Of a stretch of 13,844 bases of DNA, positions 8,179-11,165 are shown in pieces; the first letter of the stretch is position 1, and every line of letters starts with the position of its first letter. The translations under genes were made by a program, and so were the position numbers. Source of the DNA: an uncultured Butyricicoccus sp. (GTDB lineage Bacteria; Bacillota; Clostridia; Oscillospirales; Butyricicoccaceae); contig USLE01000008.1 in assembly GCA_900555465.1 (NCBI GenBank), positions 1 through 13,844 on the forward strand, read 5' to 3'. A model generated the notes under the pieces. That model saw only the letters and a list, made by a program, of their open reading frames with translations, ran no database searches and had not been told where the DNA came from.

Positions 8179-8790
8179 ATGAATAACAATTTAATTATCA
8201 CTATCAGCCGTCAATATGGTACGGGTGGCCGCGAGATCGGTCAAAAACTTGCGCTCCGCCTTGGCATTCCGTTTTATGACCGCGAGCTGATCACGCGCGC
8301 GGCCAAGAAAACCGGTTTTGATGAAAAGCTGTTCGAGCAGCTCGACAAGCGCGCAACCAACAGCTTCCTGTATTCGCTGACCATGTTCGGCTCGGTCGGC
8401 CTCAACGGCATGAGCCTGACCGACCAGCTCTATCTGGCGCAGTCCAACATCGTGCGCGAGATGGCGGAGGATTCCGCCTGCGTCATTGTCGGCCGCTGCG
8501 CGGACCATGTGCTGCGCGACTTCCCGAACAAGTTTGATTTCTTTATCCACGGCTCGATCGAGGATCGCGTCAAGCGCATCCAGACCTGCGGCGACTACGA
8601 GATCGAGGGCAAGACGCCCGAGTCCGCACTCGAGAAGATGGATAAGCAGCGTTCTACGTATTACAACTACTACACCGGCAAGGTATGGGGCAAGTGCGAC
8701 CACTACGACCTGTGCATCAATGCCGGACGTCTGGGCGTGGAGTATTCGACGGATATCATCCTCGAATACGTTAACCGCCTGAAAAAATAA
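8179..8790 (+). CDS. Cytidylate kinase-like family protein
   Basis: A 203-residue P-loop protein of the cytidylate-kinase-like family (Cytidylate_kin2 type). The nucleotide-binding loop is ITISRQYGTGGREIGQKLA (7-25), followed by IPFYDRELITRAAKKTG, the typical next segment in this family. Other visible parts are VIVGRCADHVLRDFPN and FIHGSIEDRVKRI in the middle, then DKQRSTYYNYYTGKVWG, a conserved lid-like stretch. It differs from true Cmk in length and in these motifs, so the substrate need not be CMP. The family is widespread in gut Clostridia and poorly characterised. The ATG at 8179 follows TAAGGAGGG at good spacing. It has a strong promoter with a dyad at the start site and its own terminator, so it is a single-gene unit. 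Confidence 0.9.
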   Translation: MNNNLIITISRQYGTGGREIGQKLALRLGIPFYDRELITRAAKKTGFDEKLFEQLDKRATNSFLYSLTMFGSVGLNGMSLTDQLYLAQSNIVREMAEDSACVIVGRCADHVLRDFPNKFDFFIHGSIEDRVKRIQTCGDYEIEGKTPESALEKMDKQRSTYYNYYTGKVWGKCDHYDLCINAGRLGVEYSTDIILEYVNRLKK

Positions 8791-8828
8791 CCAGCCGGTT
8801 CTCCGGGAGAGGAAAGAGAGAGGAGAGG

Positions 8829-8860
8829 CGCCGCGTCGGGATGACGCGGCGTTTCGCTTT
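8829..8860 (+). terminator. Intrinsic terminator
   Basis: The 9-bp stem cgccgcgtc (8829-8837) pairs with gacgcggcg (8843-8851), followed by TTTCGCTTTT. It ends the cytidylate-kinase-like gene. Confidence 0.82.
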
Positions 8861-8915
8861 TCCGAGGGAACCTGCGCGGCTTTTCAGCGTCTAACTGGAT
8901 AAAAGGGAGGGATGT

Positions 8916-9554
8916 ATGATGAAAAAATGGATTATGGGACTGTTGGCAGCGGCACTCGCAGCGGGGGTTGCAGGCTGTATGCCAATGGATCCTGCGGAAC
9001 AAGAATCGCTGTCGGCCAAGCCGGTCATCTACCTCTATCCGGAGGAGCAGACCGAGGTCAGCGTCAAGCTGGATTACGACGGCGAACTGACCGTTACATA
9101 CCCGGCCTATGAGGACGGCTGGAACGTGACCGCCTATCCGGACGGCACGCTGTTTGACGCGGAAGGCAACGAATACGCCTACCTGTTCTGGGAGGGTGTG
9201 TCGGACACTGAATACGATTTCTCCAAGGGCTTCTGCGTGGCGAGCGAGGACACCGCGGACTTCCTGCGGGAGACGCTGGCAGAGATCGGCCTGACGCCCG
9301 AGGAGTACAATGAGTTCATTGTTTATTGGCTGCCGCGCATGCAGGAGAACGCCTATAACCTGATCTCCTTTCAGGCGGGGCGGTACACACAGGCGGCAGA
9401 ACTGACCATTACGCCCGAGCCGGACAGCGTGCTGCGCGTGTTCATGGCATGGAAGCCGCTCGAGCAGCCGCAGGAGATCGAGCCGCAGCAGTTTGCGCCC
9501 TTCCTGCGCGAGGGGTTCACCGTGGTCGAGTGGGGCGGCACGGAGGTATCCTGA
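8916..9554 (+). CDS. Predicted lipoprotein with conserved extracytoplasmic domain
   Basis: A 212-residue protein with a type II signal peptide: MMKKW, a hydrophobic core, and the lipobox VAGC with Cys21 as the predicted lipidated residue. The mature part begins SAKPVIYLYPEEQTEVSVKL and includes YPAYEDGWNVTAYPDGTLF and YEYDF-type aromatic stretches. I recognise this as a domain found widely in Clostridia, but I know no function or name for it. It is acidic and rich in aromatic residues, with no protease or hydrolase motif seen. It would sit on the outer face of the membrane. Two tandem ATG codons (8916 and 8919) follow an AAAGGGAGG ribosome site; either may be used. A terminator precedes and follows it, but I could not find a convincing promoter in the 8861-8900 stretch. 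Confidence 0.82.
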   Translation: MMKKWIMGLLAAALAAGVAGCMPMDPAEQESLSAKPVIYLYPEEQTEVSVKLDYDGELTVTYPAYEDGWNVTAYPDGTLFDAEGNEYAYLFWEGVSDTEYDFSKGFCVASEDTADFLRETLAEIGLTPEEYNEFIVYWLPRMQENAYNLISFQAGRYTQAAELTITPEPDSVLRVFMAWKPLEQPQEIEPQQFAPFLREGFTVVEWGGTEVS

Positions 9555-9562
9555 CCCATAGG

Positions 9563-9597
9563 AAAGCCGGTGCGTTGTATGCGCACCGGCTTTTTCT
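9563..9597 (+). terminator. Intrinsic terminator after the lipoprotein gene
   Basis: The 12-bp stem aaagccggtgcg (9563-9574) pairs with cgcaccggcttt (9582-9593), followed by further T residues. Confidence 0.9.
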
Positions 9598-9609
9598 GCC
9601 CGGCGGCGC

Positions 9610-9638
9610 TTGCAGCCGGCCGGCGGTTGTGGTATAGT
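9610..9638 (+). promoter_or_regulatory. Promoter of the zincin gene
   Basis: TTGCAG at 9610-9615 and TATAGT at 9633-9638 with 17 bases between, 22 bases before the start codon. Confidence 0.55.
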
Positions 9639-9659
9639 AGCCTTGGAAAGGAAGATGCT

Positions 9660-10040
9660 ATGATTTCCATTGACCGCTTTCAGGAAATATTGGAGGATTT
9701 GGCCGAGGAGCTGCCCGCGGAATTCTACGATGAATTGAACGGCGGCATTCTGGTCGATCCGGGACATCCGCTGCATCCCGCGGATGAGCACGGAGACCTG
9801 TATATCATGGGGGAATACCGCGTCGACCCGGCGATGGGCAAATATATCGTGATGTTTTACGGTTCGTTCCGCCGCGTCATGGAGGACGCGGACGAGTCCG
9901 AGTGGATCGAGGAGATGCGCGATGTGCTGCGGCATGAGTTCCGCCACCATATTGAGGGGCGCGCGGGCGTGCGCGACCTCGAGATCTGGGACGAGCAGCA
10001 GATCGCGGCCTACCGCGCGGAAAATCGGGAAGAGGAATAA
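9660..10040 (+). CDS. Zincin-like metallopeptidase family protein
   Basis: A 126-residue small protein with the zinc-protease signature HEFRH (His92, Glu93, His96) followed by a further His and Glu (HHIEG). This fits the metallopeptidase family of short bacterial zincins (Zincin_1 type) that are usually about 110-140 residues. Upstream pieces typical of the Clostridia version include ELNGGILVDPG and DLYIMGEYRVDPAMGKYIVMFYGSF. No signal peptide, so it is probably cytosolic; the substrate is unknown and proteolytic activity has rarely been shown for the family. ATG 9660 is preferred over the earlier in-frame ATG 9570, which lies inside the preceding terminator and has no ribosome site; GGAAAGGAAG lies just upstream of 9660. 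It converges on the NiaR-like gene across the repeat region. Confidence 0.85.
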   Translation: MISIDRFQEILEDLAEELPAEFYDELNGGILVDPGHPLHPADEHGDLYIMGEYRVDPAMGKYIVMFYGSFRRVMEDADESEWIEEMRDVLRHEFRHHIEGRAGVRDLEIWDEQQIAAYRAENREEE

Positions 10041-10044
10041 AAAG

Positions 10045-10072
10045 CTGGCAGGGCGCTTATGCGTCCTGCCAG
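10045..10072 (+). terminator. Stem-loop after the zincin gene
   Basis: ctggcagg-G-cgc (10045-10056) pairs with gcg-T-cctgccag (10061-10072) across a TTAT loop. There is no good T-run after it, so termination is uncertain; it may simply protect the 3' end. Confidence 0.5.
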
Positions 10073-10169
10073 TTGCAGTCTGTCGAAAAGTCCCCGCGCG
10101 GCGGAATAAGGATAGAGGCCTGCGGGCTATACAAACCGCGCCCGCGTGCGAGGGGGTATGTGTATAAAA

Positions 10170-10254
10170 CGTGGCAATGCGTGTCATTCCGTGGCAGATC
10201 GTAGAGAAAGGCATTCCGCCTGCCACGCTTTTCCACACTTTGCCACACTTTTTT
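10170..10254. repeat. Decamer array unit A: forward block then inverted block
   Basis: Forward units start at 10170, 10180, 10190 and 10200 (CGTGGCAATG, CGTGTCATTC, CGTGGCAGAT, CGTAGAGAAA). After an 11-base gap, inverted units start at 10221, 10231 and 10241 (TGCCACGCTT, TTCCACACTT, TGCCACACTT), followed by more T. The period is exactly 10 in both blocks. Together they can fold as an imperfect hairpin ending in a T-run. Confidence 0.88.
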
Positions 10255-10259
10255 CTATC

Positions 10260-10280
10260 TATACCGTGTTACCGTATATC
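10260..10280 (+). repeat. TATACCGT block, copy 1
   Basis: TATACCGTGTTACC followed by GTATATC. It sits just after the T-run of array unit A. The same block recurs at 10475 and, degenerate, at 10546. TATAC and GTATA form a small inverted repeat within it. Confidence 0.75.
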
Positions 10281-10310
10281 TGTTTATATACGCTTCTTAT
10301 TATGTAAAAA

Positions 10311-10360
10311 AGACCGTGGCAGACCGTGGCAGACCGTGGCAGACCGTGGCACATCGTTGC
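10311..10360 (+). repeat. Decamer array, outer forward arm
   Basis: Four perfect tandem copies of AGACCGTGGC at 10311, 10321, 10331 and 10341, then the variant ACATCGTTGC at 10351. Bases 10311-10340 are the inverted complement of 10508-10537 at 29 of 30 positions. Confidence 0.95.
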
Positions 10361-10380
10361 AGCGGGTGTCTGTAAATAAG

Positions 10381-10420
10381 AACGTAGCACATCGTAGCAC
10401 ATCGTAGCACTTCGTTGCAA
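10381..10420 (+). repeat. Decamer array, inner forward arm
   Basis: Units with CGTAGCA or CGTTGCA cores start at 10383, 10393, 10403 and 10413, in the same 10-bp phase as the outer arm. ATCGTAGCAC occurs twice in tandem. Confidence 0.92.
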
Positions 10421-10431
10421 ACGCGGTCCTT

Positions 10432-10468
10432 CCGCAACGATCTGCTACGGTAAGCAACGATCTTTTTT
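10432..10468 (-). repeat. Decamer array, inner inverted arm with T-run
   Basis: Inverted units GCAACGATCT, GCTACGGTAA and GCAACGATCT step by 10 bases from 10434. The arm pairs with 10389-10420 at 23 of 32 positions and is followed by T7. Confidence 0.88.
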
Positions 10469-10474
10469 TCTTTT

Positions 10475-10495
10475 TATACCGTATTACCTATACTC
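10475..10495 (+). repeat. TATACCGT block, copy 2
   Basis: TATACCGTATTACC followed by TATACTC, directly after the T-run of the inner inverted arm, the same relative place as copy 1. Confidence 0.75.
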
Positions 10496-10506
10496 TACAG
10501 TCTTTC

Positions 10507-10541
10507 CGCCACGGTCTGCCACGGTCTGACACGGTCTTTTT
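10507..10541 (-). repeat. Decamer array, outer inverted arm with T-run
   Basis: Three inverted units (GCCACGGTCT, GCCACGGTCT, GACACGGTCT) from 10508 to 10537, then T-rich sequence. The arm pairs with the outer forward arm at 29 of 30 positions, enclosing the inner hairpin. Confidence 0.93.
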
Positions 10542-10545
10542 CTTT

Positions 10546-10563
10546 TATACCGTGTTTATACTC
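10546..10563 (+). repeat. TATACCGT block, copy 3 (degenerate)
   Basis: TATACCGTGTT followed by TATACTC, lacking the second ACC. It again follows an inverted decamer arm and T-run, and is followed by an alternating TA stretch. Confidence 0.68.
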
Positions 10564-10637
10564 TTATATATATACTCTTTTGATAGCGGAAAGCGATACT
10601 CCCAGCCGTTTCATATGGGTCCCGCCTTAACGGATCG

Positions 10638-11165
10638 TCATTTGTCCTCGGAAAGCAAAAACCCTTTGTCCTTCAGCCCCTGCACGATGCGGTCGAGCGT
10701 CGCCTCGTCCGCGGCGCGCAGCGTGTGCAGGTGGATGCCGCCGGTCAGGTCGCACAGCGGCCTTGCGCCGGGCTGCTGGATCTTCTGATAGAAAGCGTCC
10801 GCATCATAGCGGGAAAAGATGTGCAGCGGCGCACAGATCTGGCCGTATACCGAATGTTCGACCGTCACGTCGATCAGCGCGCCACCCAGATCGACCACCG
10901 TGTACAGCTCTTCGAGCAGACGGTCCTCCTTGTGGCGGCAGACCACGCGCCGCTCAGCATAGGCGGGCGTGGCGGCGGCGTTCTCCAGAATATAGCCGCG
11001 GGGCGTTGCGAGCACGGCAAGACCGCCCGCGCGCAGCAGGGCGATATCGCCCACGATAATCTGGCGGCTGACGCCGCACTGCGCGGCCAGCACGGTAGCG
11101 GAGACCGGCTTGTCGGCTTTGGAAAGCAGTTGGGTGATTTTTGTGCGCCGATCAGCAGCGTTCAT
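10638..11165 (-). CDS. niaR: NiaR-type transcription repressor (HTH + 3H domain)
   Basis: A 175-residue regulator. Residues 5-58 form a winged helix of the HTH_11 type (RTKITQLLSKADKPVSATVLA, then CGVSRQIIVGDIALLRAGG). Residues 72-172 form a 3H domain, named for its conserved histidines: RHKEDRLLEEL (His78, Glu86), VEHSVYG (His104) and GGIHLHTL (His145, His147). The His/Glu spacing fits the nickel-binding set I recall from Thermotoga NiaR (TM1602). NiaR represses niacin uptake and NAD biosynthesis genes when nicotinic acid is bound. No niacin or NAD gene lies in the window, so its targets are elsewhere. The start at 11165 follows AAGGGAG. A dyad just downstream of the -10 suggests autoregulation. 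The family assignment is secure; the exact effector is inferred. Confidence 0.88.
   Translation of the reverse strand: MNAADRRTKITQLLSKADKPVSATVLAAQCGVSRQIIVGDIALLRAGGLAVLATPRGYILENAAATPAYAERRVVCRHKEDRLLEELYTVVDLGGALIDVTVEHSVYGQICAPLHIFSRYDADAFYQKIQQPGARPLCDLTGGIHLHTLRAADEATLDRIVQGLKDKGFLLSEDK

Follow-up and report, generated by a model that had tools for sequence, protein, structure and literature searches.

BrickBuilt, described in Porphyromonas gingivalis, is a MITE that holds a minisatellite, with units of 23 nt and 19 copies in strain ATCC 33277, and it is short, intergenic and without a transposase, its tandem repeats standing between leader and tail parts (PMC4596501). The repeat considered here lies in the window, that is, the whole stretch of 13,844 nucleotides of bacterial chromosome that was analysed, and it shares these general traits, whereas its units are of 10 bp with 3-bp spacers, occupy both of a pair of inverted arms, and are present in three copies at one locus. 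By analogy, the element may work as the BrickBuilt combination of MITE and minisatellite does. REP and REPIN sequences, short extragenic palindromes treated as miniature mobile DNA and described as abundant within a genome (PMC3116915, PMC2817692), are also comparable, but the arms in the window are phased arrays and no dispersed copies were found in the genomes searched. Origins of lambda-type phages offer a third parallel, with repeated initiator sites adjoining an AT-rich tract; such iterons lie inside the initiator gene (PMC7466680), as do phage arrays reported below, whereas the array in the window contains no gene and runs in both orientations.

A literature search by motif letters gave nothing relevant, and searches on the design of the element, judged by their listings, named no identical element. 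Centromeres of the ParR type are built of tandem sites at near-helical phase, as is the array in the window, and an earlier note on this DNA had drawn that comparison. It finds no support, since no partition gene or protein was found among the nine window proteins scanned, and a ParR centromere was rejected as a candidate on this ground. The units in the window differ from such a centromere in being inverted and nested.

Phased CGTNGCA units

It is clear that CGTNGCA units in strict 10-bp phase and in both orientations, as first noticed in the earlier note, are present between two convergent genes, one on the + strand ending at 10040 and one on the - strand ending at 10638. When at most one mismatch was allowed, CGTNGCANNNCGTNGCA matched 13 times in the window, each time within 10170-10533, compared with a mean of 0.17 and a maximum of 2 in 200 shuffled controls. 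Over 30 nt the outermost arms (10321-10350 and 10508-10537) show 97% complementarity, which agrees with the 29 of 30 matching positions already remarked upon. Selection of units by phase, with degenerate ones retained, gave 22 in-phase units, distributed as four left and three right in copy A, five and three in copy B, and four and three in copy C, and their consensus is approximately CGTNGCANAN.

Every one of these units has G2 and T3; C1, G5 and C6 are each kept in 20 of 22 and A7 in 18 of 22, and position 4 is variable, being mostly G in copies A and B and A or T in copy C. Information content is 0.62 bits at the variable core position, 1.2-2.0 bits at the other six, and 0.25, 0.92 and 0.12 bits at the three spacer positions. 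The core is better conserved than the spacers over the 22 units, which have been copied from one another and are not independent. The suggestion that the array binds protein is compatible with the strict phase and with this conservation of core over spacer; no protein that would occupy it was identified, and the mutual copying of the units reduces the weight of their agreement.

Three homologous copies, one within another

The array resolves into three homologous copies of one repeat, A, B and C, all within 420 bp and with C in the loop of B:

10155 to 10285, + strand: copy A, consisting of an AT-rich head, left units (10170-10209) and, beyond a loop, right inverted units (10221-10247) followed by a T-run and an AT-rich tail; the most degenerate copy, with approximate ends
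10297 to 10370, + strand: left half of copy B, consisting of the head and five left units (10315-10364)
10371 to 10499, + strand: copy C, in the loop of B, with left units at 10383-10422 and right inverted units at 10433-10459, then a T-run and a tail; ends tentative
10500 to 10572, + strand: right half of copy B, consisting of three inverted units (10507-10533) followed by a T-run and an AT-rich tail, the right end being approximate

Each copy follows a common plan of AT-rich head, left array, loop, right inverted array, T-run and AT-rich tail, the loops carrying a TTCCGC-like motif and the tails TATACCGTRTT (recognized partly by eye). With C excised, the alignment scores for B-C, B-A and A-C were 47, 32 and 30, and 500 dinucleotide shuffles of each pair reached at most 13, 15 and 13, respectively. 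The AT-rich tails align even by themselves (p of 0.009 for A-B, 0 for A-C and 0.003 for C-B, in 1000 shuffles). What had been read as a folded palindrome is indeed a nested structure, but the nesting is that of two homologous elements, C inside B, and the forward and inverted pair to their left is a third and more degenerate one. The symmetry had been attributed to selection or to recent copying. Since the arms of copy A carry differences from each other that are not compensated, recent copying suffices for the near-perfect arms of B, and the part of the claim that invoked selection is not borne out.

Long inverted arms occur in every copy and defined tips in C only. Its candidate ends run tentatively from TGTA (10371) to TACA (10499), and a GTC adjoins each of them (10368-10370 and 10500-10502); these ends and the target duplication are put forward tentatively because scoring of all possible cuts gave them no distinction. 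No target duplication around A or B was seen by eye. No open reading frame of 80 aa or more lies within 10239-10589, so that the element, as would be expected of a MITE, is short and lacks a transposase. An antisense frame of 511 aa (8703-10238) extends into copy A, and we take it to be spurious.

The site of a lost gene

The left neighbour, ending at 10040, is zincin-like, its Pfam score falling slightly below the cut-off, and the right neighbour (10641-11165, - strand) is a 3H/HTH regulator that is 91% identical to its counterpart in the MAG Candidatus Agathobaculum stercoravium (locus L065). Among 17 genomes compared with the window, none proved to be of its species, and the nearest showed 85% DNA identity over 1435 bases. 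In L065 the same two neighbours enclose a gene of 207 codons for a predicted lipoprotein (lipobox identified by eye), of which the window retains the two ends, while the body between them has been replaced. These remnants and a further repeat that adjoins the array are as follows:

10057 to 10075, - strand: remnant of the lipoprotein-like gene, its last 19 bp including the stop; 17 of 19 positions identical in the L065 alignment, which runs on into the common gene end and the zincin-like gene
10076 to 10140, + strand: truncated copy of an intergenic repeat that is dispersed in this bacterial family, a neighbour outside the array; relatives match 10100-10139, and the part before 10100 was delimited by eye only
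10590 to 10614, - strand: remnant of the lipoprotein-like gene, its first 25 bp including the start codon; 22 of 25 positions identical in the L065 alignment, which runs on into the common 3H gene

Judged by these alignments, the site of the array is a ruined lipoprotein-like gene. The convergent pair is present in 7 of the 23 loci of relatives that were compared, with a lipoprotein-like gene between its members in two (L065 and L078, the gene in the latter being 48% identical) and none in the other five. Because L065 and L078 carry a gene there, placement between convergent genes is not a feature of the array's design. The dispersed repeat next to the array, with its GGATAGAGGCCTRCGGGCTATACAAACCG core, has at least seven matches in each of two genomes (G015 and G021). 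The loss of the gene, the loci of relatives and this neighbouring repeat together suggest that the convergent intergenic place is a scar that gathers repeats and not a conserved regulatory spot. In other genomes, several matches to this neighbouring repeat lie close to contig ends.

Distribution among relatives

The array is absent from 80 syntenic or homologous loci. The search of related genomes with the decamer, which had been proposed as a check, found no second instance: three tandem decamers were seen, at one mismatch or fewer, in none of the 19 genomes to which the loci led and none of the 87 genomes of the family, in exact form in 0 of 391 genomes of the class sample, and at one mismatch or fewer in 0 of 394 genomes of the order sample, in which the reversed control matched 2; these genome sets overlap. 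When 10100-10620 was compared with the family by BLAST, at least 72 of 87 genomes matched at E <= 1, and the dispersed repeat beside the array accounts for the strong matches. Outside that repeat, the best of the listed matches span 26 bases (G023, E 8e-5) and 33 bases (G054, E 0.002), and the 750 bases around each contain no array; nor is there one in 1.5 kb at a match in G044 that lies where a contig begins. The tail pattern, with 3 mismatches, was found in 1 of 87 family genomes, as was its reversed control. In viral contigs, exact tandem CGTGGCAGACC was found in none, and a tail pattern occurred at five loci, all of them lacking an array.

A proposed lineage-specific element of the MITE kind

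The most likely reading, to which we give a probability of roughly 0.45, is that of a MITE-like element, specific to this lineage, with arms that consist of arrayed, predicted protein sites. The three copies would be a gene-less mobile repeat, and the inverted arms of 10-bp CGTNGCA units its predicted binding sites, for a protein that may be supplied from elsewhere, either a transposase or a phage or plasmid replication initiator. Such a protein would occupy neighbouring units along the same helical face and would act on hairpin ends; the element would move as a unit, C having probably entered B by insertion. The locus may be a neutral scar on which repeats accumulate, the array having no effect on the flanking genes. 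Of the possibilities first raised, the best fit is a mobile or structural repeat family, given three homologous copies, one of them nested, at the site of a lost gene and not found in relatives. Against the MITE-like reading stand the confinement of the copies to 420 bp, with no fourth found in the relatives searched, and the fact that no transposase is linked to them; local duplication would look alike. If the element is mobile, it is a compact one with a recognition code that is legible from the sequence, as identical phased sites in both arms, and its protein should be easy to find.

Phased units in viral contigs and the possibility of an origin remnant

It is possible, though unlikely, that the array is what remains of a replication origin from a phage or plasmid, left behind or brought in by a mobile replicon, with the units as iterons and the AT-rich tails as unwinding tracts. 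Direct phased repeats beside an AT-rich tract, as in iteron origins, are indeed present, the tails having 24-29% GC in a window of 60% GC. In a viral collection, moreover, three exact tandem decamers occurred at 64 loci (39 clusters), compared with 15 loci (12 clusters) for the reversed pattern, an excess that favours an origin. Eleven of the 64 loci (5 clusters), and 0 of 15 controls, fall within genes whose products are related to five phage replication-initiation proteins, a count to be read with the caution that these query proteins were drawn from the same viral loci. They are the five of nine chosen viral-locus proteins that matched a replication-initiation PHROG; the remaining four matched no PHROG. 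Position 4 of the core is constant within the array in 34 of 39 viral clusters, and in 16 of 21 in which the spacers differ, compared with 6 of 12 and 0 of 3 clusters of the reversed control. This pattern of sequence conservation suggests that an initiator-like protein reads CGTNGCA at 10-bp phase in some phages. One array (L018:2617-2643, phased CGTAGCA decamers), from a cluster of seven, adjoins an AAA_25 helicase gene and is possibly a replication origin; 6 of 10 proteins scanned in L018 match no PHROG. The other members of this cluster are L033, L036, L050, L051, L057 and L058, the gene scan having covered L018.

Several results weigh against an origin remnant in the window. No replication initiator was found by Pfam among the nine window proteins scanned, where an adjoining initiator gene would be expected of an iteron origin, and phrog_21423 was found in 0 of 87 family genomes. 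Inverted arrays of the G or A type were found in 0 viral contigs. Neither phage nor plasmid records gave matches beyond chance level: at E 1e-5 neither matched the region, and with copy C at E up to 10 the phage records gave none and the plasmid records only four chance-level matches (E about 4). The sharing of a phased motif with some phage replication genes raises the idea that some gene-less bacterial repeats derive from phage origins.

Less likely readings: local amplification, hairpin RNA and iteron copies

A further explanation, which we consider about as unlikely as an origin remnant, is that of a local satellite, in which a decaying gene became the site of slippage and template switching that amplified a 10-bp unit together with its inverted counterpart, with neither mobility nor function. 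It would account for the position of every copy within one ruined gene, for left and right arms that are unequal in unit number, and for the lack of an array in the other genomes searched. The heads, loops and non-repetitive tails can also be aligned between the copies, which 10-bp slippage alone would not yield. If the array is merely such a satellite, it is of little importance.

More improbable still is a transcribed hairpin RNA, or a bidirectional terminator serving the convergent genes. In line with the hairpin proposed earlier, the fold predicted for 10150-10560 is very stable (-158.4 kcal/mol, compared with -107.3, sd 6.2, in 100 shuffles; z = -8.3), and an A-run and a T-run flank the outer ends of the array between the convergent genes; long inverted repeats of any kind, however, fold well. 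Rfam gave no match over the window at gathering score and three chance-level ones below it (best E 0.2), and a known structured RNA was rejected as a candidate. A simple scan, the loop limit of which (8 bases) excludes such long hairpins, showed no terminator or promoter. The uncompensated differences between the arms of copy A, and the five relatives that keep the convergent pair without an array, also speak against an RNA or terminator.

Very improbable, finally, is that the copies are gene-less chromosomal iterons of phage type, either mini-origins spreading by means of an infecting phage's initiator or decoys that titrate it, in which case copies differing at core position 4 would respond to different phages. 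Replication of lambda is reported to be blocked by a piece of its origin, together with oop, when this is carried on a plasmid (PMC3349717).

Long tandem decamer arrays are present in the viral contigs L024 (5892-6038, 15 units), L034 (2913-3059, 15 units) and L006 (2864-2950, 9 units); next to the arrays of L024 and L006, the scanned proteins are without a functional assignment. The viral contig L063 carries, at 43-195, CGTAGCA units in both orientations around an AT-rich middle, a resemblance to the window element by motif only.
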